The notes under the pieces are model-generated. The model made no database searches. It was not told where the DNA came from and worked only from the letters and a program-made list of their open reading frames with translations. This document shows positions 3,166 to 58,233 of a stretch of DNA of 64,000 nt, in pieces. The position numbers and the translations under genes were made by a program. Every line of letters begins with the position of its first letter. The stretch's first letter is position 1. Source of the stretch: Tetradesmus obliquus (taxonomy: Eukaryota; Chlorophyta; Chlorophyceae; Sphaeropleales; Scenedesmaceae); NCBI GenBank assembly GCA_030272155.1, contig CP126200.1, forward strand, positions 1,178,001 to 1,242,000. The letters are read 5' to 3'.

Positions 3166-3537
3166 ATGTCGACGCACACGAGCGGCCTGAGCTCGAGGAT
3201 CCAGGCCAACCACCTTTCAGCAGCAAGACCAGTTGTAGGGTCAACAACAAACTGCAGGGCGTTTTTTCCAGCATGCGGGCCGTCTCGATCATCTGCTGTG
3301 GCTCTGGCTTCATCAGGGGGCCGCGGTAGGCGCAGCTCGGGCTTGCTGGGCGTTCAGCAGGCAGGCAGCAGCAGTAGCAGCAGGCCCAGTGCAGCCAGCA
3401 AGATTGCCTGCAGGGCTACAAGCGTGCTTGCTGGGCCAGCAGCAGGCTCGGACCGTGCATCTGCAGAAGCAGTTGGTGAAGCACTTATCAAGCGCTGGCT
3501 GGGTGTTGCTGAGAAGGACAGCTTGCCAATCTTCAAG
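3166..3537 (+). other. GWD1: GWD exon 1: probable chloroplast transit peptide
   Basis: This 124-codon exon begins MSTHTSGLSSRIQANHLSAA and is rich in Ser, Ala and Arg with almost no acidic residues for about 90 residues, as algal transit peptides are. The mature-like part follows (AEAVGEALIKRWLGVAEKD). It ends in phase 0 at a GTGAGT donor. Plastid targeting is inferred from composition and from what is known of the GWD family. Confidence 0.7.
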
Positions 3538-5012
3538 GTGAGTGCTGTGCCTGGCATTGCTGAGTCAGCAGTTGCGTTCCTGCAAGCCAGCTGATGATCA
3601 GACGCACTATGCATCGAGTGCTGGTGTGCATTGTGATATTCGATATGTATCGAGATATTGTGCATACATTTTGCTCCCAATGCTGGCTCTGTGTGAAAGC
3701 AGCCGTCGCATCCAAGGAAATCTACTATGCAGCAGCAGCACAGCAGCACCCGCTGCTGCTGAGTGAATCAACCCGAGATCACCTGCAAAATAGCCAGGAG
3801 TTCCTTTGTTGCAAGTCTATCACTGTTCTGTCACTGTCCACCCGTTGGTTTTAAAAATACACAGCTAGCATGTCACAGCACACAAACCTATGCATTCCCT
3901 TGCCCTGTGCCTGAGCACCGTCATGCCTGATCAACCACCCCACTCACGCTTTGTTTGCTTGCAGGAAACTGGTCCCCTGAGGGAGACTGCCTGCGAGCTG
4001 ACCGTGTGTGGAGCAGCCGTCGAGTCCAAGGGCCGCAAGCATGCCCTGCTCGCTTTCATCATCACGCAAGGAGCAAGCAGCAGCAGCAGCAGCGCCAGCA
4101 AGCCAGGCAGCGGCGGTTTTGGCGTCACTGACCTGCCTAAACCCATGCTGCACTGGGGCACAGTGGCCCGCCAGGGCGACAGGTGGCAGCCGCCGCCAGC
4201 TGGCTGGTCAACGTGGCCTGACGTGTCACATGACGCGCGCTGCGGCGCGTGGCAGACGCCATTTGCGGAGCAGCAGCTGCCGGGCGGCGGCGTGGCGCTG
4301 ACGCTGCTGCTGCAGCTGCCCTGCGATGGGCCACTGGGGTAAGCTGGAGTGCTGGAGTGCGAGCGTGAAGCGTGTTAGCTGTGCGCCTGTTTTGCGTTGC
4401 TTCTTGCCAGCAGAGAAGCACGCCTTGCATTGCAACAGTTGAGCAGCGGGTGTCCAGTGGCAGGCGAGGGCTGTGCATGCTTGCAGGACTGCCTGCCAGC
4501 ACCTGCGGTTTTGTGATTCAGCAACAGGGGTTGTGTGGCACTTGATGGTGCGCTAGCTTGCTGCCGGCGCCTGCACAGCGCGTATTTGCCAATTTGCTCA
4601 CAGGCATGTGGCCTCCATGCCACGCATGCAGCAGCTCGTGCATCCCGACCGCACGCTAGCATGATTGCGCGCCTTGTATGTCTCGCTACGGTAATAAGAG
4701 GGGCTGTTGTTCCTGCATGCAAAAGCAAAGCCTCAGTCGCAGCAAGTTTTGTGACAACATGCATGCTAACCTGTTTCTTTACTTGGGTTTTGCAGGCACG
4801 GCGGGCTGTCGTTCCTGGTGAAGACCTCCAACAACAAGTGGCTGGGCAATGCAGCAACCTACAAGGACTTCTGGTACCCCACGGCGCAGCTGCCTGTGGT
4901 GGCGGCTGTGTCAGTGGGCAAGGCGCCTGGCAGCGCTGCTGCTGACCTGGCGGGGCCTGACAAGCAGCTGGATATGGAGAAGTGAGCATGGGGCTGATGG
5001 AATCAGCAGCTG

Positions 5013-5043
<31 letters not shown>

Positions 5044-8000
5044 ACAGATGGAACGGCTGCAGTGATGTGGGGTGCTGCACGTGTCCTTGCAATCCGTGGC
5101 GTGCAGAAATGTTATGTTCCTACTGGCGATCTAGCTCCAGCACCTGCAAAGGAATTAGAGCTATTTTTTCATCTGCGCTGTCCTGCAGGCTCGCTGCTGT
5201 GCCGGTGCCAGCGCCAGCGCCACAGCGCAGCCGCAGCCGCAGCGGTGAGCGCAAGAAGGAGCACAAGGACTGGCGCAACAGCCACAACGGCAACGGCAAC
5301 AACCACCACCACAGCAATAACAACAACCATCACCACCACGACAACCACCACCACCAGCAGCATGGCCAGGAGCCTGAGCTGCCTAATGCTGGCAGGAGGG
5401 AGAAGGAGCCAGCCTTTGACGAGACACAGGTGCGTGGTGCTGCATATGTATTATTGTATGAAAATTCATCTCCAGTTGTGTTTGTCACCGAATTTGCTGC
5501 AGCAATGCACCGGGCAGACATGCCGTGGTTGCTGCAATCGCTCTTGTGCACTCATACTTTTGCAGGGAAATGTGGCATGCGGCATTCATGCAGTTCCAGC
5601 CATCATCCATCGGAGCTGCTTGGCACCACTTCATATGCCTGTTTGTTGTGTGGTTGCTGAACCGCTGTGCCCTGCCCTTGCTACCTGCCCCGGCCTGCCT
5701 CTGCATGCCTCGTCAGGTGTGCACGATGTCCGCGCAGCAGCTGCGCGCGGCGGCTGGCGAGCAGCTGTCTGCGTGGGTGGCTGCGCAGCACGACCTGCAG
5801 GTGCCGGCATCAGGCCTGGACATTGAGCTGGTGAGCATCAGGGTAGCTGCTACTGCGCTGTACAGTACATAATTGAGGTTTGCAGGATAAGACTTGTCCA
5901 CTGCAGCGGGCTGGACATTGAGCTGGCGAGCACTGCAGACGACTGCTGCACTGTACACCACTTGACTCCCCCAAGCTGAACTAGGCGAATTAACATATGC
6001 TGCTTGCCGCCACTGCTGCAGCACGAGTGGCCTGTCAAGGGCCACCCCAGCACCCCTTTCGTCATCGCCAGCGCAGCACCCTTGGCCACTAGTTTCGTGC
6101 TCTTGCCCCTGCTGCTCACATTCTTGCTGTCTCTGCCGCCCCTGTCGCTGCTGCTGCAGCACGAGTGGCCGGTCAAGGGCCACCCCAGCACCCCTTTCGT
6201 CATCGCCAGCGCAGCGCTCTGGCGCAGCATCCCAGGCACCACCAGCCTCGCAGCAGCGCAGCAGCGCGAGCCAGTGCTGCTGCTGGCAGCCATGGGCGAC
6301 GTGGGTTTGACCGGCAAGCGCAGCCCAGGGCTCGTGCTGCACTGGTCTGCAGTGGGTGCGGAGGGCGCTGCGAGCGTGCTGCAGCGGCCGGATGCGGCTG
6401 CTACGGAGGCGACTGCCGCGCTGCCGGAGGGCTGGAGCACGCTGCCAGACATGTCTTGGGACGCAGGTGGGTTGAAAGGACTGAGCTTTCACTGGGGTGA
6501 AACTGCGTCAAGCTGATTGCTGCTTGTCATGGCAGTCGCATTTGTTGGGACGCAGGTGGGCGTAGCACTATTGTTCTTGAGCCAGGGTCAGCCTGCATCA
6601 TACAGCTGCTTGTTGTGGTGGGATCTGTACAACCACTGCAGACAGCAGTTAACTTGTTTGTGGCGCAACGTACAGCACATAGAGTTGGCTGTGATTATGT
6701 TCATGCAGAAACCTGGGACTGTGGTCAGCGCTGTTGCTGATAGTTGACATTGACTGTTTCACCGCTGCTTGTGTGCCGCTTCTGCTCACTGCTAGGCTCT
6801 GACTTCTGAGACACGCCCATGAACCCTCTCATTGTGCAGGCCTTTGTGTGCTGCATTGCTATCTATAAGTGCTGCCTATGTGTTGATGTGCCAGAACACG
6901 TCCTGCAGCGGCATGCGCAGCAGCACCGCGTACATGTCTGTTTAACCAATCGCTGCACTGCCATGCCTGCTGCACTGCCATGCCTGCCGCAGGTTCCGGG
7001 TTCTGGGACACGCCCATGACGCGCCACCTGCTGCAGCGCCCCTCTGCGGCCGACCTGGCTGCTGGCGTGGGCAGCTTCGACAGGCCCAGCAAGGAGGCGG
7101 CAGACATGTACGCGGTGCTGCTGCGCATGCCGCTGCAGGACGTGTTCTGGTGCGTGCGTTGCCGCGGGCGCTTAGTACTAGTTCGGCGCAGCAGCAGCTG
7201 TGGCATGTCGTGGCGCGTTGCTGCTGCGCATGCCGCTGCAGGACGTGTTCTGGTGCGTGTGGCGGCGTGCGGCCGTTTTGATGGCGGCGGCAGCAGCATC
7301 ATGTACTCATATTCAAAAGATATATGCTGTGTGATGCTATCTGCAGCTGAGTACCTGCAATGTTATCGTGCAAGCATGTATGTACTCATGTGTGGCTCAA
7401 ACAGGTAACGTCTGCCTTTGGCACAGCAACAGCTGCCATGCAGATGTATGTTGTATCTGAATGTCACCTTCTCTTGCCTGTCCTGCCTGCCCTGCGCTGC
7501 AAACGTGCGCTGCAACAACAGCTCTGGCGGCCTGCTGTTCACGATGCGCACCGCGCGCCGCCAGTGGGTGCGCCACGCCACCACGCGCGGCCCGTTCTAC
7601 CTGGACACCTCAGCGCACGCGAAGCGCCTCGGCATCTCTGCTGACACACCACGCCCAGCATCCCCCTCATCAACAGCAGCAGGCGCAGCCGCAGGGCAGC
7701 TCTCAGCAGATGAGGCTGCCTGGAACACCACGCATGCAGCTCTCACTGCGGCAGGACTCTCAGAAGATGAGATCGTTGCGTTTGCGGCCAGCATGCCGGC
7801 AAACAAGCCGCACCTTGCTGCTGCTGCTGCCAGCCACACTTCAAGCAGGCCTGGCAGCAGGAGCTCTAGCAGGCCTGGCAGCAGGGCTGGAGTGCGGCCT
7901 GACCAGGCGGCTGTTTTGGATACAGCTGATGCGGAGCTTGCAGCACACATCATCGCGCAGAGCGTAGCGAGCCTGGATAGCCGCAGCAGCAGCAGGGCTG

Positions 8001-11000
8001 GCAGGGGTGATGATCTGGAGGGTCTTCCGGAGCTGCTGGAGGCAGCTTCAGGCATGATGATGTCAGGAAATGCAGGAAATGCAGATGATGGAAGCGGCAG
8101 GGCCAGCTCAAAGTTCCTGCGGGACTTTGAGCCGCAGCCGCTGGACCTGTCGGGCTTGGGCTGGGGGCTAAGCGGAGAGGCCGGCAGCGGCAGGTGGGTG
8201 CTGGTTTGGTGTGATTTGGGCCGGATTTGAAGGGGGCTTGATCATGCCGGCTGCAGATGTGTGGCATCTTGTCAGGCTGCAATGCGCTTTTTGACGTTGA
8301 AGTTCCTGCGGGACTTTGAGCCGCAGCCGCTGGACCTGTCTGGCTTGGGCTGGGGGCTGAGCGGAGAGGCCAGCAGCGGCAGGTGGGTGCTGGTTTGGTG
8401 AGGTTTGGCCGGGTTGGGAGGGGGCTTGATTAGGCTGGCTGCAGATGTGTGGCATCATGTCAGGCTGCAATGCGTTTTTGTAATGTTGTAAGTTCCTGCG
8501 GGACTTTGAGCCGCAGCCGCTGGACCTGTCTGGCTTGGGCTGGGGGCTGAGCGGAGAGGCCAGCAGCGGCAGGTGGGCGCCAGGGCAGTTAGGCTGGGCT
8601 GCAGCTGTTGGTGGAATTCGGTTGGGTTGATATGCGGCTGGCGGGGTCGGGAAAGGGCTTGGCCGGGCTGGCTGCAAATATGGGTTACTTTGGGTGCAAT
8701 GCCTTTGTTTAATTTCAATTGGGGACTGTATGCTGCAGCCGCTAGATCTGTCAGGCTTGGAGCTGGGGGCTGAGTGGGGACGCCAGCAGGGGCACGTGGG
8801 GAATTGAGACAGCACCAAAAGCATCCCTGAGACACACTTGGGGCGCCAAGCAACACGTGGTGCAGTGCAGGCAACTTGTGCGTCATGCATACTAACAAGA
8901 CAGCTGGTTTTTAGTCAGCTTGTTGCTAACAGCTGACCACAAATCAGCTGACTTGTCAGTATGCATTGTTGGCGTCGTGATGACCACCCTCCTGGTGCTG
9001 ACAGCTTTTCTTGTCAGGGTGGTTGTTTTGTGCAATGCAAGGCATGCTCCCCTTCCCACACTTTGCAATGGCTGAATGATTTTATGCACAATGTTCAACC
9101 TTTGCCTGTGCCTTGATGTTTGTCACCCCTGCAGCGACTACATGGATGTCCCGGAGCTGTCACCCCGCCATGACCTGGTGGGCAGGATCGCTGACCTGGA
9201 GCACAAGGCGAAGCGCTCACTCATGCACAGGTACGGCACATGATCAAATACGTATCTGTCACTCTCAAGTGATGCTGTTCATGGTTGCATTGTAACCTAA
9301 ATGGCGCACAAGGCGCGCCACTCACTCATGCACAAGTGTTTGGTTGGGTGTTTGATCGTCTGATTGCTTGTTGGTGCTTGTTTCTGTGTTGTGGCTGTTT
9401 GCCAACATGCTGCTCAACACAGGCAGCTGCAACTACAGCTGCTTGCATCAGGCGGCCATCTAAAGAATCCGCTGCTGACCTGCTGTATCATGCATGCTGC
9501 CCACAGGTACAGCATTGCTGCGGACCTGGTGGGTGAGCTGCTGCCAGACATCAGGGCAGCAGCAGCAGAAGCACCGGCCTCACTGCTGTGGCCCCTGCAG
9601 CAGTCGCACAACCAGAACAATGACGCAGCGTGGCGCGGCGGCGGCGCTCTGGCGGGCCTAGTTGCTGTGGCTGTGTGGCTGCGGCTGTCATCGCTGCGGC
9701 TGCTGGTGTGGAACCACAACTATAATGTGAAGCCGAGAGAAATCAGTGCGGCGCTGGACACGCTCGGGGCACGGCTCATTGAGGTAAGGGGTGGCACCTG
9801 GTTCAATGTCAAAATCACGCAGTACTATTTGGACGCAGCGACAGCCCGTTGTAGTACCACTTTGCGTGCAATTCAGCGCTGGGCTGGCTGTGCGCGCCTG
9901 GTAGAGCTGGCAGATGCGCCTGCTTACTCAGCTACTATACAGCAGTGGGTTGCGAGTGAGACATACGCTGTCATGCTCGCCCCTTGCAGGTATACGAGGC
10001 TGCGCCGCAGCTCTTTGGAGTGGTACTGCTGGCGCAACCATGCAGCGAGCGTTTTTTTAAATGTTTTTGCTGTGCTCAACACTGCATTGCTCAGGTGTAC
10101 GAGGCTGCACCGCAGCTATCGGGCGTGGTGCTGCTGGCGCTGGCCTCGGCAGGGCGCGGCGGCATGGGCGACATGGGCCAGCGCATCCGCGACGAGATCC
10201 TGGCGATTCAACAGCGCAACGGCTGCAAGGTGGGAGCTGATATGTCTCCTGCTTCAAAGCTCTATTTGTTATCCCTGTGTGGCGTGCATTCCGGGCGTGG
10301 CTCAACTACTTGCAGGGTAGTGCCATTCAAGATCCCTCTGGCTCTCTACTTCACTGCTGTGATGGCTGCTGTGCTGCTGTTGTGCAGGGCGGCATGATGG
10401 AGGAGTGGCACCAGAAGCTGCACAACAACAGCAGCCCCGACGACCTGGCCATCTGCCAGGCGCTGCTGGACTACCTTGCGGCAGGGCAGGACCTGAGCGT
10501 GTATTGGGGCAGCCTGGCGGCACAAGGTAAGGATAAACAGCTTAGCGGCAGCGAGTATGTATGGGTAGATAGCTCGGTGTATATGCTGCTTAGTGGCCAT
10601 CTGCCAGGCGCTGCTGGACTGCCTGGCAGCCGGGCAAGACCTGAGCGTATATTGGGGCAGCCTGGCGGCACAAGGTGCGGACTGATAGCAGCTTCAGCAG
10701 CTGCTCGCTTCTTGATGGTTTGGTGGCATACCTGCTGCACTATCCGTACACCGGTGTAACAGAAGTTAATATAGAGTAAATCAATTAATGCGCCTGTTCA
10801 TGGTACCATGAACAGGCGCATCAAATGATTGACTCATTATTAAAATCTTCGGTCACTGCATTTCCCCGAGACGTGCATGCCTGCTCAGCAATAGTTTGGC
10901 CTGCGCTGCTGCGCTCATCCTGCATTGGTTTCACCTCCACGGTGCCCCTGCATGTGATGTCTTATTTTTGCTCCCGCCAGGCATCACCCCAGAGCGCCTG

Positions 11001-14000: not shown

Positions 14001-16992
14001 GGGCCTGTCATTTTGGTGCTGCAGCGCCTGGCAGGCGAGGAGGAGGTGCCGCCTGGTGTGGTGGGCGTGGTGGTGCTCGGGGACTGCCCGGATGTGCTGA
14101 GCCATGCGGCTGTGCGGGCGAGGAATTGCAGGGTGCCGGTGGTGGCGTGTCCCAGGTGAGAGCAGTGGCGGCTGGTTGGCAGCAGTTCAGGGTGGTGTGG
14201 AGTTCATGCATGCAGTTTGTTGTCATTTGGCTGTGCGGGCGCGGAACTGCAGGGTGCCTGTGGTGGCTTGCCCTGGTGAGAGTGGTGGTGCTTGGCGGCA
14301 AGCGCATCTGGTTTGTTGACTTGCATGTTGCATCTAGACGAGGGCGGCAGATGGCGTGCACGCCGCGGTGGTTGCTTGCCCCAGGTGAGAGCCGTGGCAA
14401 TTGGTTGGCAGTAGGCAGGGTGGTGTGGAGTTTATGCGCGCAATTTGTTGTCATGTGGATGTGCGGGCGAGGAACTGCAGGGTGCCAGTGGTGGCGTGCC
14501 CAAGGTGAGAATGTTTGTTGTTAACCTGGCAGGAAATGTGTGAGGCCTGCTTGTGCACATAGCGCAGTGGGTGATGGCAAGTGACACAGCCAACGTTCCA
14601 CAGCACGATACTACAGCGCCACTTGCGCTTGCGCCTGCGCCTGGTTGTGCTCATACTCATGCTGATGCTGTGATGTTTGTCTTTTATCCCGATCGTGTTT
14701 GTATCAAACAGTGCATCTGTTGCTGCGGCTGCGGCTGCTTACTGAACCTGTGCTGCAGCTCTGAGGAGGCCGTGTTGTCCCCGATCATGGCGATGGGACA
14801 ATTGGCTTCCAGTTACACTGACCTGGCGTACAACTGCTGCTGCTGCTTGCTGCCAATCTGCCCTGCAGCTCTGAGGAGGCCGTGGTCTCCCACATTGCGG
14901 CGCTGGCAGGCAAGCAGGTCACACTAGCCATCAATGGAGATGACGTCAGCATCACAGAGGCAGCGGCAGCAGCAGCAGCGCATTCAGCTCCTGCAAGTGC
15001 TGCTGCTGCTGCCAGCAACGGCCACGCCAAGCAGCAGCAGCAGCTGGTGGCGTCAGGCCGCTGGGACGGCAGCAGCTGGGCCTTGACGCCAGAGCAGTAT
15101 GCACCTGGCGTGGTGGGAGCTAAGGCGATGAGTGCACAGAAGCTAGCCTTGGCTGCAGCAGGCACCAAGTCTAACCTCAAGGCAGTATCCAGCTTGAACG
15201 GCAGCAGCAGCAGCAGCAACGGCAATGGCAAGTCTGGCGGAGGCTTCTTTGATGCACTGCTAGGCCGTAGCAGGAATGGAAGCTCTGCTACAGCCGAGGC
15301 AGTGCAGCAGCAGCAGGAGATGCTGCAGCTGCCAGCCTGGCTGAAAGTGCCGCAGTCTGTGGCGCTGCCGCATGGAGCTTTTGAGGCTGTACTGCAGGAC
15401 CCGGTCAACGCGGGTGTTGCTGGGCAGCTGCAGCAGCTGGTGGCGCAGGTGGCGGCAGCTGAGGAGGCGGCGGCTAACAACGGCGGCTCGGGCGGGGCGT
15501 CTGATGGAGACCTGCAGCACATCAGGTGAGGAGGGGGCGTGAAATCGCAGCTGCTGCTGTTGCAAGCAGTTGTGCAGAAGAATGCGCGGCTGCAGTGTTG
15601 TATGGCTCCTGCATTGGTTCAGTATGCGTGCAATGGGTGTGGTACGTGCGTCTAAAGGCCCCTGCTTTCATCAAATTTGGCCACAGACGTCAACATTCAT
15701 TGTGCTTTCCTGCCCATTGCTGGTGACATGTGCAGGAGGTTGGTGCTTCAGCTGCAGGCGCCCGCAGCACTGGGCCAGCAGCTAGACACGCAGCTGTCCA
15801 GCCTCGCTGCAGCAGCAGCAACCGGCAACGGCAGCAGCAGCAGCTACAGCTGGGACGCAGCCTGGGCAGCGGTCAAGGGTGTGTGGGCCAGCCAGTGGAA
15901 TGACAGGGCACTCGCAGCACTGCGCAAGGCGCGGCTGCCGCTGCAGCAGCTGCGCATGGGCGTGCTGCTGCAGCCGCTGCTGCCTGCACGCTACAGCTGG
16001 GTGGCGCACACTGTGAATCCTGCAAGCGGCAGTGCTGCTGAGGTGTCTGTGCAGCTGGTGGTTGGGCTAGGGGAGGTCCTTGTTGGCAACTACCCTGGGA
16101 GAGCTCTGAGTGGGGTCATCCGCAGAGACTCCCTGACTGCTGCACTGCAGCAGGCCTTGAGCGGCAGCAGCAGCGGCGGCATTGGTGGGGTGCTTGCAGG
16201 ACTGCAGCCGCCTGTGCCTGAAGATGCTCAGCTGCTGTCAGCTGTTGAGGTGGTGTCGTATCCCTCCAAGGATGCTGCGGTGGTACCTGCTGGCATGTCC
16301 CTGCCCTGCGAGGTCCGCAACGGCAATGGCAATGGCAACGGCAGCAGGAATGGCAATGGCGCTAGTGCTGCTGCTGGCGAGGTTGTGTTCATGGCGCGCT
16401 CGGACTCCAATGCAGAGGATCTGCCAGGGTGAGTTAGTGCTGAGTACAGCTGTCTATTGCTCAGGTGCAGGTGCTGTTATGTTTGAAAATGAGCTAGGCG
16501 CAGCAGGCTAGTCAGTGCGGGTTGTGATCAGCGTCTATCGCGGGCTGGTTCAGCTGCGGGTGCTGTGTTGAGTGGGCTGGGTGGAGCAGCACGAAGGGGC
16601 CTGTACAACATGACATGTGCCGTGGCTGCTGGAGCAGGTGTCACCACTTAAACATTCAAACCCACGTCCATGGTCGGGAAACTCACCTGTCACTTCTGTT
16701 GCTGTGCCTCTCCTGTTTGCTGTGTTGCAGGTTTGCGGGCGCGGGCCTGTTCGACAGCCTGCCAAGCGCCCCCACCCGCTCAGTGCTGATCGACTATGCA
16801 AAGGAGCCCCTGGTGTGGGACAAGGCTGCTGCTGCAACGCTGCTGTGGCAGTGCGCTCTGGCGGCTCTGGCAGCAGAGCAGGCAGTGGCAGCAGCAGATG
16901 GGGAGCTTGAGGAGGGTGTGGGGCAGGATGTGGAAGGGTGTGTCACACCTGATGGCGCCATCTGGCTGCTGCAGGCGAGGCCCCAGGTGTGA
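3166..16992 (+). CDS. GWD1: alpha-glucan water dikinase (starch phosphorylation), 22 exons
   Basis: GWD transfers the beta-phosphate of ATP to C6 of starch glucosyl units in the plastid, opening granules to degradation. Exons by splice junctions: 3166-3537, 3965-4338, 4796-4981, 5189-5429, 5717-5830, 6160-6466, 6993-7149, about 7531-8193, 9135-9230, 9507-9783, 10095-10229, 10388-10526, 11108-11216, 11488-11573, 11947-12322, 12558-12793, 13039-13172, 13456-13562, 13871-14155, 14869-15525, 15736-16428, 16731-16992. This gives about 2,000 residues; land-plant GWDs have about 1,400, and low-complexity insertions explain much of the excess. The Ser/Ala/Arg-rich start fits a transit peptide. LHWG and LHWS motifs mark two CBM45-like regions. 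Diagnostic blocks are WNHNYNVKPREIS, EEWHQKLHNNSSPDD, DVLSHAAVRARN with the phosphorylated His, ARSDSNAEDLPGFAGAGL and the terminal LLQARPQV. ATG 3166 starts the open frame. The exon 7/8 junction is uncertain. Family identity is very secure. Confidence 0.95.
3965..4981 (+). other. GWD1: GWD first CBM45-like starch-binding region (exons 2-3)
   Basis: The exon translates with LHWGTVARQGDRWQPPPAGW, the Trp-bearing signature of family 45 carbohydrate-binding modules, and the next exon carries GGLSFLVKTSNNKWLGNA and DFWYP, the second half of the same fold. In plant GWD these tandem modules bind raw starch weakly and reversibly. The spacing LHWG ... W..PP ... SFLVK is what I rely on. Confidence 0.75.
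5189..5429 (+). other. GWD1: GWD exon 4 with His/Asn-rich insertion
   Basis: After a short conserved-looking start (LAAVPVPAPAPQRSRSRSGE) the exon encodes about 25 residues made almost only of His and Asn, from roughly 5290 to 5365. It then resumes with EPELPNAGRREKEPAFDETQ. The frame is kept through the tract and the exon ends in phase 0 at GTGCGT, so the tract is probably translated. It lies in the linker between the two CBM45-like regions. Confidence 0.75.
6160..7149 (+). other. GWD1: GWD second CBM45-like region (exons 6-7)
   Basis: Exon 6 encodes HEWPVKGHPSTPFVIASAAL, then SPGLVLHWSAVGAEG and LPEGWSTLPDMSWDAG, and exon 7 continues with GFWDTPMTRHLLQRPSAAD. The LHWS and W-x-LP pattern repeats that of the first module. 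A copy of the exon 6 start lies just upstream at about 6023-6084 with its own CTGCAG acceptor. Confidence 0.75.
8110..8805 (+). repeat. tandem copies of GWD exon 8 end plus donor (4 copies)
   Basis: The last 28 codons of exon 8 (FLRDFEPQPLDLSGLGWGLS and on) with the GTGGGT donor and about 90 bases of intron recur at about 8110-8298, 8299-8489 and 8490-8600, and as a decayed copy near 8732-8805. The first three are nearly identical and keep the donor. The unit is about 190 bp. Confidence 0.9.
10789..10820. repeat. 32-bp perfect palindrome in a GWD intron
   Basis: The sequence reads TGCGCCTGTTCATGGT followed immediately by its exact reverse complement, centred on a KpnI-like GGTACC. Flanks extend the symmetry imperfectly (TCAATTAA on the left, TCAAATGATTGA on the right). 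It lies in the intron between exons 12 and 13, in a locally AT-rich stretch. Confidence 0.95.
13871..14155 (+). other. GWD1: GWD phosphohistidine-domain exon
   Basis: This exon encodes the swivelling domain: SIVSRLPTQVSG, VILVLQRLAGEEEVP, GVVGVVVLGDCPDVLSHAAV. The His codon at 14103-14105 corresponds to the histidine that is transiently phosphorylated in GWD and related PPDK-like enzymes. The surrounding LSHAAVRARN is intact, so the enzyme is predicted to be active. It begins at a CTG-repeat acceptor and ends at GTGAGA. Confidence 0.9.
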
Positions 16993-17148: not shown

Positions 17149-17178
17149 TGACATGTTAGGTCTGGTTACAATATGTTA

Positions 17179-19486: not shown

Positions 19487-19686
19487 AATGCGCTGCGTGA
19501 CGTCTGCCAGAAGCAGGTGACCTACACGCCTGCTTTGCACTGTAACTGCACACCGCTCCAACGCCCTTGGACTGCCTGCGCTGACATACTGCTGCTGAAA
19601 CAACACTTCCCTGAGTGCTACAGTGCGCTTCAAGGGATTCTACGAGCGGCTGCGGATCCATGCACCATGCCTTGTGCTGTGACCAC

Positions 19687-34115: not shown

Positions 34116-34310
34116 CTGCACAACAGCACACCAACGCCACTTCAATTTCAGCTGGCCTCGCCATAAGATGCTGTCTTTGATGCCGTGCCTTTTGAGCATG
34201 TCTAGGTATGGGACAGCACACCAGCGACACGTCACTTTCAGCCGGCCTTGCCATGAGATGCTGTGGTTGAAGACGTGCCTGTGGAGCACTTCTAGGCGCA
34301 CGACGGCACA
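34060..34310 (+). repeat. HEN1 3' end triplicated past the stop
   Basis: A unit of about 85 bp containing GTTGACGACGTGCCTGTGGA and GCACTTCTAG recurs with its stop codon at about 34085-34115, 34170-34205 and 34262-34296. The later copies lie in the 3' UTR. Confidence 0.85.
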
Positions 34311-34518
34311 CCAACTCCGCAAGCATGCAGCGTTCCTTGCTTTGGGATGCTGCTGCTGCTGATGCGCCAGTGGAGCGCTAACCAGCAAACTGGGCAGCAA
34401 CATATGCAGTTTAAGTTCCTGACATTCACTTGCTGCTGGTGGTCACGTTAGTGCCGGCTGCTTGCCCCACGCCTTGCCTGTTCGTATTGCTTTTATGTAG
34501 AACCGTGTGTTGTGTTCT

Positions 34519-48587: not shown

Positions 48588-48622
<35 letters not shown>

Positions 48623-50836
48623 AAGAACGGTGCTATCCGGCCCCATCACAAACTGCTGCATCGGCGGCCCACCCAAGCCAGCAGCAGCAGCAGCAGCGTG
48701 CTGCGCCTGCAGCACCATCATCTGAATGCCTGGCGGCTGCAGCAGCACTCCCTGCTGAGGCATCCCTGGCGCCCCCGGCTGCTGCTGCTGCTGCTGCTGC
48801 ATCAGCAGCTGCTGTGGAGGCCCTGCAAACCCAGCACCTGCTGCTGCTGCTGGTGGTGCTGCTGGAGCATAGCCTCCCTGCTGAGGTGGAGGTCCCAACA
48901 AGTGCTGCTGCTGCTGCTGCTGCTGGCCTGGCCCTGTTATAGCACCTGGTATAGCTCCACCAGGTGGCAGCGGCCCATGGCCAGGCAGAGCCAGCTGCCC
49001 TCCCTGCTGCAGCTGCTGCTGCTGACCTGGCACAAACCCTGCGGCAGCAGCCCCCTGCTGCTGCTGCTGCAGTGCTGGCAGCACCCAAGCCACATCAGCT
49101 GGCGACATGCGCTGCAGTGCACCAGCCACCTCCTGAGGAGTCATCGCTAACAGGATTCGCAGCATGCTTTGCTGCACCAGCGGAGTCAGCAGCCACAGCA
49201 CTGCTCCCTGCTTTGGTGTCATGCCCCGGTAGGTGTCAAAGCCATCACCCGGTGCACCCCACCACACCTCATCTTCAGCCACCTGCTGCTGCTGCTGCTG
49301 GTTGAGCTGCAGCTGCTGCATCTGCTGCTCTGTTGCCTGCTGCTGCTGCACGGGCGACTGCTGGCCTGCAGCAGCAGCAGCTCCCTCACCAGCAGCAGCA
49401 GCAGTAGTATGCTGTGGAGTCCCGGGGAGCTGGGGTGTGCCAGGAGCAGAGCCTCCTGCATCAGACCCCTCCCGCTGCTCTTCTGCCAGCAGCCGCTGCC
49501 GCTTGTTCTTCGGCTGCTGCTGCTGCTGCTGCCCCTCAGACTTGCGCTTGAGCTCTGCTGCTTGGCTTTCCCGCATCGCCTGCAGCCAGTCTTTAGTCGA
49601 GCCGTCATCAGCAGTGCCTGCTGCTGCTGCTGCACCCAGAGGCGGCGTGCCGGTTCGACCCTGCTGCTGCTGCTGCTGCTGATCTGATGGGTTTGTTGCT
49701 GCTGCTGTTGATGCATCGACCAGCATCCTGTCAGCTGCTCCGCCCTCCCGAACCCCACCATCCTCATCACCCACTGCTGCCGCTGCCGCAGCAGCATCCG
49801 CCGCCTGCTGCTGCTGCCAGCTGGGCATCATAGCTTCCTGCAGCTGTCGCGCCTTATGCAGCTTTCCTGCAAGCGCAGCTCTGCGCTGCTGATCCGCCAC
49901 ATCATCTGGCTGTGCATCCCACACAAGGCAGCCCCTTGCACCAGCATCACCAATCAGTGCGGCCCATGCAGGGTTTGAAACTAACGTGTCACAATGCCCT
50001 AACACATACAGCGCCTGGCGTGCGCGCGTGATCGCAACGTTCATGCGCCGCGTGTCGGATAGGAAACCGACGCCGCCCTTGCGCACAAGCTGCAGCGAAA
50101 TCGGCTCCTGCTGCTGCTGCTGATCTTCTGATGCTGCTGCATCCGCAGACGCTGCCTGCTCAGCTCGCTGCAGCGCCTTTTGTACTGCCTGCTGCGCTGG
50201 TCGATCTGCAGTTGTACTGCCGGTTGACTCCGGCCACTCAGCAGCAGCAGCAGCAGGACCAGCAGTACCGCACTTGGGAGCCCGCACACACGTCAAAATA
50301 ACAATGTCCAGCTGCTTCCCCTGAAAGCTGTCCACTGTCTCAATCTTCACCTCCTGCAAAACCGCCTTCCCAAAGCGCTGCTCAAACAGCCGCCGCAGCA
50401 GCGTGCGCTGGCCCCTGTAGGGCGTTATAACGCCCACATCTAACCGCAGCTGTGGCGGCTCCCGCGCCACGCTTGCTGCTGCTGCTGCCAGCGCTGCTGC
50501 CCGCACGCGCCGCACCTCACCATAAAGCGCTACTGCCATACGTGCCTCAAGTTCATTTTCTGGGCTCTTTCCGCCGCGGGCGGCAAAGCGCTCCCGGCCT
50601 CTACTGACATCATACACCACATATGGCAGCAGCACACTGCTGCTGCTGCTGGGTGCGGCAGCAGGGCTGGTAGTAACACCTGCTGCTGCTGCTGCTGCGT
50701 CGAACCAGGGCCGCGGCCGCTGCAGCACTGAGGGTGCATCAATGAGCTGGCTGTGATAGAAGTAGGCTGAGGGGAAGGTGCGGATGGCTGGGTGCATGCG
50801 GTACTGCACTGTGAGCACATTGACGGGGCAGCCGGC
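48215..50836 (-). other. helicase terminal exon: motifs IV-VI, poly-Gln and RGG tail
   Basis: This single exon of about 870 codons starts at a TTGCAG acceptor with AGCPVNVLTVQYRMHPAI. It completes the second RecA-like domain by about 49900. It then carries many short Gln runs broken by Pro/Ala-rich spacers, and finishes with GGRGGRGGGRQQQQ-type repeats between about 48460 and 48215. RGG boxes commonly bind RNA. The tail is far longer than expected and is repeat-driven. Confidence 0.88.
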
Positions 50837-53800
50837 CTGCAAGCAGCAGGAGATGAGGTATAACAAAGTAGACAGTTGTCAGGTTTGTCAGGAGGAGGTG
50901 CGTATGGCCGGGTGCATGCAGTACTGCACCGTGAGCACATTGACCGGGCAGCCGGCCTGCAAGCAGCAGGAGAAGGGGTACAGTAGCAGAGGCAGGTGTT
51001 GGCACTTTATCATGAGGGGAAGGTGTGTATGGCTGGGTGCATGCGGTACTGCACTGTCAGCACATTCACTGGGCAGCCGGCCTGCAAGCAGCGGGAGAAG
51101 TGGTACAGCGGCATAGCAGACTTGACATTTGACTGTGATGCAGCGTCTGTGTACGGCTGAATGCATGCCGTACTGCATCGACAACATGCGCACTGCGCAG
51201 TTCGTGTCTTCCGCACTGTTTTGTTGCTTGTATGTCTTCAAGCTCGCTTGTTTAAAGGTGCGGCTCACAGCGCATGGCAATATTGTGTTATTCCGCACCT
51301 CTGCCAGGCGTTCGAACAGTGAGCGCTCCAGTGCCAGCTGCTTGGCCGCCTGGCTGAACAGCGTGGCGGGCAGCTGCTGCGGGTCGCCCACCATCACCAC
51401 AGCCCTGCAGTGTAACAAGCAGTGTCCGGCACATGTCAGATGGTGTGCCGCGCATGCTGGATCTATTGCATGCTGGTTCGCCCACAATAAACAAACACAC
51501 GCAGTCACCCATGAGTGTGCAGCAACATGTAATGCTTGAAGACCATGCCATGCAGTGCCTGCACGTGACTGGAAGGTAGAGGGCAGCTGCTGCGGGGTCC
51601 CGCCCACTCCCTCATCAGTCACTTACTTGGCGCAATACACCAGCGGCTGCAGCGCGGAAATCTTTGCTACTTGTGCCGCCTCGTCCACCAGCACCAGCTC
51701 AAAGAGCTTTATTGCCCCAAAAAACCAACCCTATCAACCTTCAGACCCACTCACTTGGCACCGTACACCAGGGGCTGCAGCGCTGCTATCTCCGCCGCCT
51801 GTGCTGCCTCGTCCACCAGCACCAGCTCAAAGGGCGTGACCAGGCGGCTGAACACGTCACGCGCGCTGCTGCTCAGCGTAGTGAACACCATCTCCGCCTG
51901 CAGGGACATGTGGCGCAGCAGCAAAGCAGTCAACCTATCGGTCAAACAAAAAGTTGCAGCAACAATCAGAACATCAGTCAACTTGAATATCTAACCAAGA
52001 TGTCAGACATGGTATGCTTCGCGTCCACTTTACAAACAGAAGTTCCTAGGTAACAGTGCACCTCGTGCAGAATGCTGCACCACCAGTCAAAGCTGTCAAA
52101 CCAGCATGCAACCTACACTCCCACTGACACTCAACTGACAGTCAAAGTAACAGTCAACCAAAAGTCAACCTCACCTTCTCCACAAAAGACATCTCCAGGT
52201 CGCTCTGCACCTCGCGCGGCGCGGCCCTGAAAGCAGCGCGCCAGAACTCCGCCTGGTTGAAGTGCGGCGGCTGGCCAGGCTGGTGGGCCGCGTGCTGCTG
52301 CTGCTGCTTCTGCTGCTGGGCAGCCTGCGGACAGCAATGATATGTCGAGTTTAGGTTCAATTCAGGGGCAGGTTCGGACAGAAGCATGATGCCGGCAGAC
52401 TTAGAAAATCAGCCTGGGGTGCAGGGCAGCATGTGCACGGCTGCGCAATCTGCGTGGCCAATCAGAACAGCAAATCCAGTTTCCACACACCATTGCCACT
52501 GTGCTGTCCTTCTCATTAAGTATGCACACCTCAAAGCAAACAGCACAAGGCCAACCAAAGCAGCTGCCACACCCGAGCACAGTGCACCTGCAGTGCCGCC
52601 AGCCGCTTGCCCCACTCCACGCTTCCAGGCCCGCCACCAGGTGCTCCAGCACAGCCAGCCTGGCGCCTATTATGACCCTGCTTCCTCTCCTCTGCTTCAC
52701 CCATCCTGCTTGCTGCCCGCTTCCCAAACACAGCCAAGCCAGCACACAGCTGCCGACAGGGCTCCTTCCTGAGCTGCATGCTTGCAGAACTCAAAACCGC
52801 ACTCTTGAAGCCAAGTGCAGCATTTACTCCCTCACCTGCAGCGCCGCCAGCCGCTTGCCCCACTCATTGCTTCCAGGCCCCGCCACCAAGTGCTCCAGCA
52901 CCCTTGCAGAACAACAAGCCCACCTTGAAACCCCAAAAGATACACCACCAAAATAATCCTGTGCAGCACCCTCCACCCCTCGCACCTGCAGCGCCGCCAG
53001 CCGCTTGCCCCAATCCACCTGCCACGCCCCGCCACCAGGTGCTCGGCACAGCCAGCCTTGCTCCCATGACGACCCTGCTTGCTGCCCCCTCTATCAATCA
53101 CAGCCAAGACAGCCAACAGCTGCCCACAGGGCTCCCTCCTGAGCACGCTTGCACACTCAATTACTCATAAATTGGAAGGTCGAATGCAGCTTTAGCCCCT
53201 CGCACCTGCAGCGCCGCCAGCCGCTTGCCCCGCTCATTGCTTCCAGGCCCTGCCACCAAGTGCTCCAGCACAGCCAGGCAAACTTGTATTATGACCCTGC
53301 TTCCTCTCCTCTGCTTCAACCCAGCCACCATAGCACACCACTGCCCACAGGGCTCCTTCCTGAGCTGCATGCGTGCACACCTCAAATTCGTACTCATGAA
53401 AGCCAAGTGCAGCATTTACTCCCTCACCTGCAGCGCTGCCAGCCGCTTGCCCCACTCATTGCTGCCTGGCCCCGCCACCAAGTGCTCCAGCACAGCCAGG
53501 CGAGCCAGTGCCTGCTTGCTGCCCCCTGCCCTAAACACAGCTCCCTGTTAACAGCCTATCCAGCAAACAGCTGCCGCCTGGGCTCCTGTCAGATCATGCT
53601 TCCCCACTCAAACTTATGCATCGAAAGACCAAATCCGCTTTTGCACCCCTTACCTGCAGCGCCGCCAGCCGCTTGCCCCACTCATTGCTGCCCTGCCCAG
53701 CCACCAGGTGCTCCAGCACCCTTGCAACACAACAAGCCCACCCTAAACACCCCAAATTACACCATTAAAATCCTGTGCAGCACCCTCCACCCCTCGCACC

Positions 53801-56043
53801 TGCAGCGCCGCCAGCCGCTTGCCCCACTCATTGCTGCCCGGCCCAGCCACCAGGTGCTCCAGCACAGCCAGGCGAGCCAGCGCCTGCTTGATCTTCTGCA
53901 GCTGCTCAAACTCATTCACCAGCTGCGCCACGAGCCCCAACACCTGCTGCTCGTGTGTGGCTGCTGCTGCTGCAGAGTCGGCGCCGTCGGGCGCTGCTGC
54001 TGCGGCGCGCTCCTTGACCAGCATGGACTGCATGACCTGCAGCAGCAGCAGAATAGCATACAGCATCAAGCCTGAGCACAGCAACATGACGCAGCACGTT
54101 TAAACAAGCAGCGACGAGAAGCTGCGTCGGCTAATCTCACAACCCGGCACACCCTACACGTGGTCAGAAGCTGCTCAAAGGTTTATTTATCGATATCTGC
54201 GCTTGCTGCTGTGCCGAGCGCCAAACAGACGTGATGCATGCTTAAGCAGCACGGCCGAGCCCTGGCGCACTACTGACAGGTTGTTGCACCCATCCTGCAT
54301 GCGCAGGCTTCCCTCCACCGCCCTGCACCCCAGCTGCCTCCTGCAGCTTCCTGCAAGCTGCCTGCAAGCTTCATGCAAGTTCCTGCAATTTCCTGCAAAG
54401 CGGCGTGCTCACCTGCAGGGACTCTGTCAGGTTGTGCATGCGGCGCAGGCACAGCTGGAACTGGCGCTCCTGCTCCTGCCTCTCCGCCGTGTAAGAGGCA
54501 ACGCTATGGGCCAGCAGTCGCCCACACAGCTGCTCCACCCACACCTGCACGCAGAAAGATGCAAGTGAGATGAGACACCAATTTCCCTGTGATCAGGTAC
54601 TGCATATACACTGTGCCCCTGATACGTACTAGCTGACGTGTTTGTTGAAGGCAGAACAGGCATCGCCGCTGTACATTTCAGCTATACCATTAAGAGATGT
54701 ACGAGTGGTGCATCGAACCGCCCCACCGGTCTTGCCTCCTCACTGCCCAGGCGCACCACTCACTGTATGCAGAAGTCGATCATAATCATCATATTGCTCC
54801 TTACTGCAAACCCTCTCACCAGGCGCACCTTATCGCTGAGCACCTCTTCACTGCCCCGGCGCATCACGTCGGGGCAGCACAGCACACTCCCGCCACCCAT
54901 TGCAAAACATACAAGATCAGTTGCTGCACACACACCCTCACCTGTCTTGCCTCTTCACTCAGTGCCTCCTCACTGCCCAGGCGCACCACATCTGGCCGGT
55001 ACACGCGCCCGTTGACGTCACGAAACGTGCCCCTGCAATGGCAGCAGCAGCAGCAGCAGCATTGTCAGCCTACGATGCAGCATATCTGTTGCCTGAATTA
55101 TATGCTGCTCGCATGCACAGTAGATTGCTTGCGCAATAACGTACGCGCGCCTGCCCGCCCGCTCGCCTGCCCGCATGCACACACAAATTCAGAATATTCA
55201 CTTCCCATCCATAACATGCAATACACTACAAAGTTGTGGTGGGTTGGATGATTAAACAACTCCAGCACTCACCGCAGGATGCGTTCTAGCAGCTCGTCAA
55301 TAGCGGCGTTGCTGGGCGCGCACACCAGGATGCGCGGGCGCGGCGCCAGCCGGCCAGAGAAGCCGTCAGACGTCATCTCGGCGTCTGCAGCACCAGGTGT
55401 GCACCAGCAGAGCAGCAGCAGCAGCGGCAGCAGCAGCGAACAGTCAGTTGAAGGTTGATGTGTTGGTCGCCGCGAGTTATATTGAAATACACGCAGCGAG
55501 GACGCGGAACCTATTCTTGCCATACCACGGATTGGCACAGCAGCAATGCCTACATGCTGTCCATCATAAATGCACAGCCAGCATAACAATCATGTACGGC
55601 CACGCACGTACAAGTGGCATGCAACTGCCGCCGCAGGACCCGCCTAGCTTGGCGCCACGCTCCGCCAGCTCCCTCACCGGAGCATCAAGCGACACAAAGA
55701 AGCGCTGAACTGCGTGAGGTGCCTAGAAGCACCGCCAGTGCAGCAAGGCATGAACAGCCACACACGCAAATGCTCAGCGCCAACTTGCACCCAGCAGAGA
55801 GACAAAGTCTCACGCAACAGAGAGAACCAAAGACAAACAACAATGCACGCGACACAGAGGATGGCGCATGCTTGCTCACCCAGCTTTGCGCCGCGCTCCG
55901 CCAGCTCCCTCACTGCTGCATCCAGCGACAAAAAGAAGCGCTGGAACTGCGTGAGGTGCCACGCATTGAGCACGCCCAGCACCGTGTGTGTCTTGCCAGT
56001 GCCCGGAGGCCCTTGGATCAGCGTGAAGGGCACATACGGCTGG

Positions 56044-56075
<32 letters not shown>

Positions 56076-58233
56076 AGGATCAACTTCCTGCTGGTCATGC
56101 ATCTGCTGATCTTCATCTAGCTCATCTTGCTGCTCAGGCGTCGAACCTCGTTGCTGCTGTTGCTGCTGCTGCACTAGGTGTGCTGCTGCGCAGGTGATGG
56201 CATGGATCTGCGGGCCATCGAAGTGTTCTGTGAGGTAGCTCCGAAACGCGCTGCTGCCAACCTCGGACGGCAGCTCCTTCGCTGCTGCTGCTGCTGCTGC
56301 TGGGTCTGGCTGCTGCTGTGCTGCTTCAGTGCTGGCACTGCTGCGGCTGGCGCGTGTGCTGTTGTCATCACTCTTTTGCTTGCTGGGGTTCAAAATAAAG
56401 TCCAGCAGTGGTGGGTGCACAGCGCGCAGGCGCTCCAGTGTGCGGAACTCACGCACTGAGGTGACGATGGAGCCTGATGGGGTGAGCCGCCAGCTGCCGA
56501 GTGGGTGGTCCATCCACTGCTGCATCTGCTGCAGCACCTGCGGCAGGCAGCAGAAGAAAGTAAACAATCATTTGACCAGGGGTGAGGCAGGCTGACAAAG
56601 GTGCACCGAGGTGACAATGGATTTTGCTGGGGTGAGCCACCAGCTCCCGACTGGCCAGTTCATCTACTGCTGCATCTGCTGCAGCACCTGCGGCAGACAG
56701 ATGGTTGGCGCGCAATGGCAAGCGCGACAACGTCGCTGCAAAGGCGCGTAGATCAACTCTTTGTGGGAGTGTCTGGTGCTGTGTGTGCCGCGGTGCAAGC
56801 TATCCGTAGGCTGCTGCCAACTGTGACCTTCAAGTCAGGATACTGTCAGCATCAGCACTGTTAACGACTGCTTTGTTGGGATGCACAAAACATATCCTTG
56901 CTAGGCCTTTCCCGAGCGATGACAAGCCAAAATGCCTCACCTCGCAGCAGGGGCTGCTGGCCTCTGCTGGGTGCTTGCCACAGCACGGCCGCACATGCAC
57001 ATACTACTGGCAACAACTGCATTCATTCAGCCTTCATCACATGATGGTGCAGCGCATCCACTGCGCACATCATTGTGAGCCGTGTTGCTGCAGCAGCAGA
57101 GAAACCCTGCCATCTTACCTTGCAGCATGGGCTGCTGGCCTCTGCTGGGTGCTTGCTGCAGCACGGCCGCACATATGCAAATTAATTTTGCTGCCAAAGA
57201 AAACCCCGGTCACCTCACCTTGCAGCATGGGCTGCTGGCCTCTGCAGGGTGCTTGCCGCAGCACAGCCGCACATATTCAAATTCATTTAGCAGCAGCAGA
57301 AAAGTGCTGTCACCTCACCTAGCAGCACGGGCTGCTGGGCTCGGCAGGGTGCCTGCTGCAGCATGGATACACATAATATAATGCAATGCTGCAGCAGAAA
57401 AGCGCTGTCACCTCACCTTGCAGCACGGGCTGCTGGCCTCTGCGTGATGCCTGCCGCAGCATGGTACACATAATATAACTCATTTGCAGCAGCGGCGAAG
57501 CCCTGTCACCTCACCTTACAACATGGGCTGCTGGCCTCTGCAGGGTGCTTGCCACAGCACGGCCGCACATGCACATACACAGCACCCTGCTCCAGCTCCC
57601 ACCACCGCACCAAGCCAGTCACACGTGCTGCCAGCACTCCACGCTGCTGCTGCTGCTGCTGCCGGGAGCCAGGCGGCGACGTCGCTCGCTGCTCCTCATC
57701 TGCTGCCGCTGCAGCAGCGTCTGCTGAGATGTACAGTGATAGGACCACCACAGAGCAGTCCCTGTCTTGCTGCAGCTGCCGCAGTGCGGCAAGGGCCTCA
57801 GGCGTTGCTGCTGCCAGCCGCACGTTGTGCCACTCGCTGCTGAGAGAGCTGACGCTGCATCACAAATAGCAGCAGGCACGCCAAAGGTTGTTTTGCAGGA
57901 GTAATTGGGGAGGCATATGCGCAACAATAAGGGCCTGACAGGAGAGATACCACTACACAGACCTGCTGTTCACTGGCATGACAAGTGCATCATGTCTAAC
58001 CCCCACGCGCCACTCACATCTGCACCTCCACATCCGCGCCCCTGCCAGCCCTCTCGCTCTCCTCAAAAGCCGCTTTGATGCCCTCTGCTGCCTCCTCCAG
58101 CATCAGCGGCTCAAAGGCAGCCACATACTGCTGCAGGCTGCCAAAGGTGGCTGGCACTGCTGCTGGCAGCGGCGGCTGCAGTGCCTGGCAGGCAGGCTCC
58201 CACAGCCTGCTGCTGACGACTTGCTGCTCCAGC
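48215..58233 (-). CDS. SEN1/UPF1-type superfamily 1 RNA/DNA helicase
   Basis: Sen1-like helicases unwind RNA:DNA hybrids and help terminate transcription. Exons, in gene order: 58233-58018, 57848-57515, 56537-55880, 55384-55273, 55032-54942, 54544-54413, 54036-53800, 52324-52175, 51897-51755, 51404-51299, 50836-48215. Motifs in order: FTLIQGPPGTGKTHTVLG (Walker A), ILVCAPSNAAIDELLERIL (Ia), LVLVDEAAQAAEI (II), VVMVGDPQQLPATLFS (III), VLTVQYRMHPAI (IV), VGVITPYRGQRTLL, ETVDSFQGKQLDIVIL (V) and DTRRMNVAITRARQALYVLG (VI). All catalytic residues are present. The N-terminal part (FGSLQQYVAAFEPLMLEEAA) resembles Sen1-family flanking sequence. The tail is about 440 residues rich in Gln, ending in RGG repeats and MTADNK. 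The first exon is not located. Assignment to SEN1 rather than another UPF1-like branch is likely, not certain. Confidence 0.88.
50880..51216 (-). repeat. decoy copies of the helicase motif IV exon start
   Basis: The exon start CCVQAGCPVNVLTVQYRMHP-like sequence (TGCAGGCCGGCTGCC on the minus strand) is repeated upstream of the real exon at about 50890-50965 and 51010-51095, and weakly at 51150-51216 (MQYGMHSAVH). Each of the first two retains the CAG acceptor. Confidence 0.85.
51626..51712 (-). repeat. decoy copy of the helicase DEAAQ exon end
   Basis: FELVLVDEAAQVAKISALQP and LVYCAK followed by GTAAGT repeat the end of exon 51897-51755 (LVLVDEAAQAAEIAALQP, LVYGAK, GTGAGT). Confidence 0.9.
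52575..53800 (-). repeat. six intronic copies of a helicase exon end
   Basis: The end of exon 54036-53800 (VLEHLVAGPGSNEWGKRLAA, LQ and a GTGCGA donor) recurs downstream at about 53727-53650, 53490-53425, 53280-53190, 53050-52980, 52905-52835 and 52645-52575. Intervals are 140-240 bp. Most copies keep WGKRLAALQ and a GTGAGG, GTGCGA or GTAAGG donor. Confidence 0.9.
54700..54900 (-). repeat. decayed copies of helicase exon 55032-54942
   Basis: The exon end PDVVRLGSEEALSEEARQ is echoed at about 54880-54825 (PDVMRRGSEEVLSDK) and, more weakly, near 54770-54740 before an AGTGAGTGG donor-like sequence. Confidence 0.65.
55620..55720 (-). repeat. copy of the helicase Walker A exon end
   Basis: FFVSLDAPVRELAERGAKLG repeats the end of exon 56537-55880 (FFLSLDAAVRELAERGAKLG) about 240 bp downstream in the intron. 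The base after it is changed, and the donor is not intact. Confidence 0.85.
56600..56700 (-). repeat. stop-containing copy of the Walker A exon start
   Basis: VLQQMQQ, a TAG stop, then MNWPVGSWWLTPAKSIVTSV upstream of the real exon, which reads VLQQMQQWMDHPLGSWRLTP and SGSIVTSV. The CCGCAG acceptor is kept. Confidence 0.9.
56936..57575 (-). repeat. six copies of a helicase exon end with donor
   Basis: The end of exon 57848-57515 (RPCCGKHPAEASSPCCK, then GTGAGG) recurs at about 57465-57410, 57365-57308, 57275-57215, 57170-57115 and 56990-56936. The unit is about 100 bp. Donors stay GTGAGGTGA in nearly all. Confidence 0.92.

Follow-up and report, generated by a model that had tools for sequence, protein, structure and literature searches.

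Rogers in 1989 and Hellsten in 2011 are said to have described the gain of introns by tandem duplication, and Gao and Lynch in 2009 reportedly found internal gene duplication, with frequent duplication of gene segments. In intronic minisatellites, units of 100-190 bp stand in tandem and their arrays expand locally. In introners, and in the insertions left by double-strand-break repair, intronic sequence at exon ends lies between direct repeats. As far as the excerpts of two papers go, tandem genomic duplication is a route of intron gain (PMC4974935, PMC3443670), and in the potato RdRp gene the duplication copied existing intron-exon structure (PMC4974935). This work focuses on a 64,000 nucleotide stretch of Tetradesmus obliquus (contig CP126200.1, positions 1,178,001 to 1,242,000; hereafter the window), in which the ends of many exons are repeated in tandem beside the original. 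A preliminary description attributed these copies to a process anchored at splice sites. We confirm the copies, and we lean toward replacing such a splice-site-restricted process with tandem duplication across coding edges followed by unequal decay.

Like the duplications that create introns, those described here are short, lie within genes and supply extra splice signals. Unlike them, they have left their copies in existing introns or after stop codons; no new intron was identified, though none was sought systematically, and the gene for alpha-glucan water dikinase (GWD) is continuous across one copy-bearing intron. They also differ in their recurrence, at roughly every eighth or ninth splice edge of our sample, and at stops as well. 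Internal gene duplication likewise copies segments of genes, but the units here are about 120 bp, take in part of an exon, are one-sided and are concentrated in some genes. Minisatellites share the tandem arrays, but here the founding unit nearly always holds a coding-sequence edge, and regular arrays of high identity number 14 (contiguous at 85% or above) against 77 arrays overall. Unlike introners, the single intron stretch queried (GWD 10529-10985) is not a dispersed family; it had no match elsewhere in the genome, and a mobile element was rejected as the spacer there. Unlike both introners and break-repair insertions, the spacers keep a pooled likeness to the neighbouring intron. A search of the open literature, with subscription journals largely outside it, gave no title or abstract on recurrent copies at existing exon edges. 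The kind of event, tandem duplication at exon-intron junctions, is known; what looks new is how dense and how gene-specific it is here.

Copies at the edges of coding sequence

We compared the window (C10:1178001-1242000) with 250 kb from contigs C1, C4 and C2 of the same genome, 314 kb in all or 0.3% of the assembly (104.66 Mb, 17 contigs); the comparison lies within this one genome. Gene models came from a small custom gene finder that learned from these 314 kb, with no RNA evidence. Its models run GWD together with the following gene, count some copies as exons and lack untranslated regions (UTRs), and the counts of edges and genes carry these errors. Local repeat pairs of at least 45 bits, at most 1.5 kb apart and with simple repeats masked, comprise 255 direct and 3 inverted pairs, against 0 in the reversed-sequence control (window alone: 86, 2 and 0). 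That arrangement bears out the tandem duplication proposed in the preliminary description. The copies also recur on other chromosomes, since 109 of the direct pairs lie in C1 and 57 in C4, with 3 in C2 and 86 in the window. In many pairs one member is the first or last 25-110 bases of an exon and the other lies in the intron next to it.

The edge rule counts copies solely on the non-coding side, downstream for donors and upstream for acceptors, which is the orientation originally described. By this rule a copy accompanies 42 of 323 donors (13.0%), 43 of 324 acceptors (13.3%), 4 of 33 stops (12.1%) and 1 of 30 starts. Copies are not equally common away from edges: against these values of about 13%, points in exon interiors have one in 1.4% of cases, intergenic points in 0.3 and 0.7%, and points in intron interiors in 3.6% (copy downstream) or 5.6% (upstream), the last partly belonging, by our reading, to edge arrays. 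Without 14 probably miscalled edges in the arrays of the window's helicase gene, 35 of 316 donors and 36 of 317 acceptors remain, about 11%. The suggestion that most introns of several genes are affected was too strong, and the share is very uneven by gene. Stops are affected as often as splice sites, in small numbers, and this speaks against the splice site itself as the anchor. What is targeted seems to be the edge of the coding sequence.

Grouped at a spacing of at most 400 bp, a grouping that counts some coding repeats as edge arrays, the copies form 77 arrays, of which 67 straddle an edge, 6 lie in introns only, 3 in exons only and 1 between genes. Random units of equal lengths would be distributed as 22, 33, 25 and 20%. 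With exonic arrays set aside, 67 of 74 span a coding edge, against about 30% under random placement. For contiguous arrays, whose class counts shift between identity thresholds, the numbers at edges, in introns only, in exons only and between genes are 11/4/3/1 at 80% identity, 9/1/3/1 at 85%, 7/2/3/1 at 90% and 5/1/3/1 at 93%. By hand arithmetic, 9 of the 11 non-exonic ones at 85% or above are at edges where 30% is expected (binomial about 6e-4), as are 5 of 7 at 93% (about 0.03); both p-values assume independent arrays, although arrays cluster by gene. That internal exon segments are not copied therefore nearly holds, with 3 exon-only arrays among the 77 (one, at 7111, is read as a donor edge) and 3 among the 14 contiguous ones.

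Gene specificity, like the extra bias toward edges, is strong in this sample. Over 27 gene models with 631 edges, 84 of them with a copy, the clustering chi-square is 144.5, and the largest of 5000 shuffles reached 69. A Clp subunit gene in C1, whose best match we take to be of Chlamydomonas origin, is hit at 8 of 12 edges, and high fractions are also found in C1 36767-46097 (7 of 19), C1 59028-69773 (10 of 34), a gene with a mitochondrial-carrier exon (10 of 34), the helicase (19 of 42, inflated by miscalled copies) and the model that covers GWD and a methyltransferase (17 of 81). Fourteen of the 27 models have no copy edge at all, among them C2 20901-35706 (0 of 58), a kinesin-domain gene (0 of 42) and a gene with weak LRR matches (0 of 26). 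The C2 stretch is nearly free (1 of 64 donors, 1 of 64 acceptors), and in C4 copies are confined to one gene model (4 of 96 acceptors, 0 of 96 donors). The idea of a genome-wide process has to be narrowed to a gene-specific one. The fraction of edges hit does not correlate with third-position G+C (GC3), coding score, intron length or exon length; for intron G+C it is borderline (p 0.054). In poorly conserved genes, whose proteins evolve fast, old copies would escape notice, an effect unseparated here from a true difference between genes.

The duplicated unit and its divergence

The period over all arrays has a median of 122 bp (quartiles 110 and 150), and the nearest copy lies at a median spacing of 154 from donors and 139 from acceptors. 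All 85 splice-edge units take in at least 43 nt of intron, an approximate figure in that exon parts are possibly slightly underestimated and miscalled edges are included; this is the outcome to be expected if only duplications with workable splice sites pass a filter. Unit breakpoints sit away from the edge on both sides, and contiguous arrays contain the intron part of the unit. In 19 sharp-ended donor pairs likeness is near background within about 6 bases of the donor, and in 15 sharp-ended acceptor pairs it declines over about 10 bases. The intron flanks of sharp-ended pairs resemble their own partner more than other introns (13 donor pairs, permutation p 0.0002-0.0006; 12 acceptor pairs, 0 of 5000). 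An earlier per-pair test of spacer likeness had given rank one to 15 of 56 pairs and an upper-half rank to 44, and the sharp-ended donor pairs looked random in it; the pooled near-edge test is positive for these pairs. The pooled residual likeness implies that the unit did include intron, so copying exactly at the splice site, for example from RNA, is disfavoured. Anchoring at the splice site is not supported, because stops are hit at a like rate, the splice-edge units reach at least 43 bp into the intron and the apparent end is at least partly a matter of faster intron decay. A comparison between two intronic copies gave equal rates, 0.118 for exon and 0.122 for intron, in the alignable part alone (213 intron columns).

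Introns with copies have medians of 482-594 nt and those without 255 nt, and the splice dinucleotide is present in most copies (GT in 24 of 30, AG in 30 of 35); the longer introns and decoy-like sites reported before are both borne out. Predicted acceptors in the sample have a strong T-G-C-A-G consensus at -5 to -1, so many may end in the palindrome CTGCAG. No cassette-exon phase was found. The best partner site modulo 3 (0/1/2) is distributed as 11/7/9 for 27 donor copies, with 3 more lacking a site, and as 8/14/9 for 31 acceptor copies, with 4 more lacking one. Partner sites mostly score weak, and for these two reasons we rejected the copies as in-frame functional cassette exons. Proteins are apparently unchanged by the copies, no in-frame use having been found among those examined for phase and partner sites. 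GWD gives an example, since its exons 10388-10526, 11108-11216 and 11488-11573, read together, align with the solved enzyme as one uninterrupted stretch apart from a single-residue gap (E 4e-34). This leaves no room for the intronic copies 10594-10676 and 10967-11021, and it is the exon originals that fit the protein.

The exon-copy pairs analysed for divergence have a coding fraction of at least 0.35 on one side and below 0.1 on the other. This filter favours pairs without intron likeness, and the edge count was redone without it. The 83 pairs are 77-100% identical and differ 103:79:281 over the three codon positions, with 260 synonymous and 194 nonsynonymous differences and 6 stops; stops are not clearly depleted, about 9 being expected at the nonsynonymous rate (hand arithmetic). 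In multi-copy groups the differences are 26:17:39 for copies only, which may include changes in the exon lineage between two duplications, and 1:2:19 for exons only. As flank likeness falls (12, 19 and 37 pairs), nonsynonymous difference goes from 0.021 to 0.040 to 0.076 and synonymous difference from 0.148 to 0.311 to 0.264. Nonsynonymous difference follows flank decay and synonymous difference does not (Spearman -0.06, 68 pairs). Fourteen pairs with near-identical flanks differ at 33 of 200 synonymous, 50 of 626 flank and 14 of 567 nonsynonymous sites, the flank rate being lowered because the pairs were picked by flank. Synonymous differences exceed the prediction from well-preserved intron or UTR flanks, most clearly at the stop copy of the C1 Clp gene (7 synonymous, 0 nonsynonymous, flank 1/48). 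Fast synonymous change in the exon, diverged alleles, conversion and weak constraint are all possible sources of this behaviour of the exon copies.

Possible origins of the copies

We consider tandem duplication across coding edges, together with a tolerance filter and unequal decay, to be the best explanation, and hold it to be slightly better than an even chance. Some genes would repeatedly acquire short tandem duplications of about the median period. Duplications across an edge would be tolerated, the inner copy remaining in the exon and the outer copy landing in the intron or past the stop; because the outer copy is outside the coding sequence, the protein would be unchanged. Selection would remove exon-internal duplications that break the frame. 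The contiguous exon-only arrays at 85% or above have periods of 108, 69 and 66, each divisible by 3. The intron part of the unit would then decay fast in both copies while selection holds the exon original, and old pairs would retain just the exon end and the splice-site consensus. The faster decay of the intron part would make likeness seem to end right at the splice site. The direct tandem arrangement, the preference for edges and the residual intron likeness are plain in the data; the filter and the order of events are what we infer.

Several results weigh against this account. On the looser list the exon-only arrays have periods of 103, 117 and 247, only one of which is divisible by 3. Random placement predicts more arrays in introns only (33%) than at edges (22%), and 6 and 67 are seen; among contiguous arrays the corresponding counts are 4 and 11, 1 and 9, 2 and 7, and 1 and 5 at 80, 85, 90 and 93%. 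Starts are less affected than other edges, at 1 of 30, and the clustering by gene is far above chance. When neutral decay is simulated, more than 30 intron columns still align in 83% of pairs if mean identity is 89% and in 58% if it is 83%; such retention is observed in only 9 of 42 donors and 13 of 43 acceptors, so the exon copies are better kept than the neutral model predicts. The nonsynonymous to synonymous ratio, stratified by base and CpG context, is 0.19, against the 0.5-0.55 that we would expect for a free copy of a constrained exon. Third-position G+C does not drift, being 0.80 in exon and copy with exchanges of 85 against 88, and the introns have 54% G+C. The simplest neutral decay of copies is rejected by this ratio, the stable third positions and the simulation. 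The flank likeness exceeds a z of 2 individually in only 3-4 of 13 donor pairs, and local composition could be adding to the pooled value. Duplication and decay alone leave three things unexplained: the gene specificity, the excess of edges among contiguous arrays, and the finding that exons and their copies diverge slowly and mainly at synonymous sites.

A mutational process aimed at the coding edges of certain genes, such as breakage or repair coupled to transcription or splicing, with the filter only trimming its products, would suit the edge excess that persists in contiguous arrays (9 of 11 non-exonic ones against about 30% by geometry), the few intergenic copies (0.3-0.7% of points) and the strong difference between neighbouring C1 genes (8 of 12 edges against 0 of 26). 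It remains a doubtful candidate, since stop codons and splice sites are affected at about equal rates, the breakpoints on either side are removed from the edge, the hit rate of genes is uncorrelated with GC3, coding score or the lengths of introns and exons, and contiguous arrays are few (14). It also seems unlikely to us that an active gene-specific process, probably coupled to transcription or RNA processing, adds edge copies of 100-160 bp which selection or conversion holds as coding-like decoys, with introns growing outward. If the copies were kept for function, as spare splice sites or decoys that tune splicing, both the exon-like sequence and the site would be selected. The mainly synonymous differences, the stable GC3 and the retained GT (24 of 30) and AG (30 of 35) agree with this, and so do three of the four stop-side copies, which have no splice site and show no synonymous bias (synonymous to nonsynonymous 2:3, 4:10 and 0:1). 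However, the stop-side copy of the C1 Clp gene is as biased as any (7:0), and with such a mixed result the bias may or may not be particular to splice-side copies. The lack of a cassette-exon phase signal and the mostly weak partner sites also speak against function, as does the spacing on the donor and stop sides, which has no preference for multiples of three (9/13/12 for remainders 0/1/2 in 34 rows, hand tally), and we regard a functional role as decidedly improbable.

The differences could also be older than the duplications, if unequal exchange in a highly polymorphic population brought the copies in from alleles or relatives that had already diverged. Even the group with the best-kept flanks has a high synonymous difference (27/182 against 11/526 nonsynonymous, 12 pairs), and synonymous difference does not track flank decay, as such an origin would have it. 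We think this very improbable, however, given near-identical intron or UTR flanks in several of the pairs with high synonymous difference, and given that no second copy of the GWD and Clp stretches queried was found in the genome; a paralogue as the source was rejected on the same queries. An assembly artefact, with two haplotypes laid in tandem, deserves almost no credence, as the identities of the 83 pairs are spread over 77-100%, arrays reach five to seven copies, the differences are biased toward synonymous ones and homology starts within exons beside unrelated sequence.

The roughly 70-85 edges in 314 kb are a natural test of splice-site choice between near-identical adjacent sites, and they suggest a concrete way in which introns could grow longer. 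Should the specificity for genes and edges extend genome-wide, it would point to a mutation process tied to gene expression and not to DNA sequence alone.

Genes and copies of the window

The genes named in the preliminary description were GWD, HEN1 and a helicase. GWD, of the plant type, is confirmed by the solved enzyme, and the helicase has AAA_11 and AAA_12 domains; for the second gene, exon 30951-31454 matches methyltransferase domains, and HEN1 itself was not confirmed. At least 20 affected boundaries had been claimed; we arrive at about 25, so the claim stands. The automatic rule yields 37 coding edges with a copy, of which 18 are read as copies miscalled as exons (8392, 8516, 8572, 13362, ten in 52773-53710 and four in 57118-57355). 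To the remaining 19 we added six that the rule missed, at 5813, 9197, 11539 and 19618 (37-40 bits) and at 6143 and 7111, the last two having escaped because the gene finder called both copies coding.

The cases on the forward strand begin in GWD with the donor edge 5813-5837 (donor at about 5831), copied by eye at 5908-5932 (37 bits, span 5813..5932). The acceptor edge 6143-6215 is copied upstream at 6005-6077 (95%), the gene finder having fused both into one exon, and the donor edge 7111-7156 at 7214-7259 (98%, both called coding). A donor-edge array at 8111..8800, of period about 189, has the exon end 8111-8193 and copies at 8300, 8490 and 8722. The donor edge 9197-9232 has a copy at 9302-9337 (39 bits, by eye), and the acceptor edge 10092-10140 one upstream at 9987-10035 (automatic rule). 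In GWD again, the donor edge 10446-10528, whose junction fits the solved enzyme, is copied at 10594-10676 (93%; 5 synonymous and 1 nonsynonymous differences), and the acceptor edge 11094-11148 upstream at 10967-11021 (91%). In the intron between these two copies an inverted repeat lies at 10766-10843, in which 78 bases are 87% identical to their own reverse complement; it is possibly a small hairpin element. The donor edge 11539-11576 is copied at 11652-11689 (38 bits, by eye). The acceptor edge 13449-13494 has an upstream copy at 13329-13374, part of which was called exon, and the acceptor edge 19779-19813 one at 19618-19653 (40 bits, by eye). The automatic rule found the donor edges 14103-14161 (copies at 14229 and 14452, span 14103..14510), 16887-16997 (copy 17042-17153), 22123-22188 (22267-22332) and 29753-29838 (29883-29968 and 30004-30089), and the acceptor edges 14836-14891 (upstream copy 14728-14781), 20120-20182 (19995-20055) and 33174-33244 (32961-33030). 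The donor edge 32474-32554 is copied at 32661-32741 (90%; 7 synonymous and 0 nonsynonymous differences). At the stop codon of the methyltransferase gene, 34079..34318, the last codons, the stop and 3' sequence recur with a period of 90, in agreement with the earlier observation that copies of last exons lie after the stop and repeat it.

The helicase copies are on the reverse strand. They comprise the acceptor edge 50768..51109 with copies at 50890 and 51013 (period about 120), the donor edge 51748-51835 with its copy at 51620-51707 and the acceptor edge 56453-56550 with its copy at 56603-56700 (both by the automatic rule), and the donor edge 55879-55960 with its copy at 55643-55723 (89%, span 55643..55960). 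The largest array, at 52584..53890, has the exon end 53797-53890 and six further copies at 53644, 53425, 53196, 52976, 52833 and 52584, several of them called exons by the gene finder. An array at 56935..57578 has about five units of about 100 bp and one further copy, and any of the units may be the true exon edge.

Other repeats in the window differ from these. At 27233-27319 there are three copies of a 29-bp unit with a donor-like site, far shorter than the edge units; this array is outside the edge rule and not among the 85 counted units. The large non-coding stretch 23100-25310 has degenerate repeats at spacings of about 170-210 bp and multiples, unlike the edge units. Between gene blocks, at 44354-45541, a long open frame gives the impression in translation of a non-long-terminal-repeat (non-LTR) reverse transcriptase. 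In C2, twin gene models 4.4 kb apart (L023:7210-8827 and L024:1609-3226) share their exon layout, a length of 181 amino acids and the first 40 residues; the first includes an exon with a match to the Arf family, and neither has edge copies. Short sequences in L008, at about 5790-5830 and 6260-6440, recur, often clustered, at dozens of places on many contigs, and are perhaps a dispersed element.

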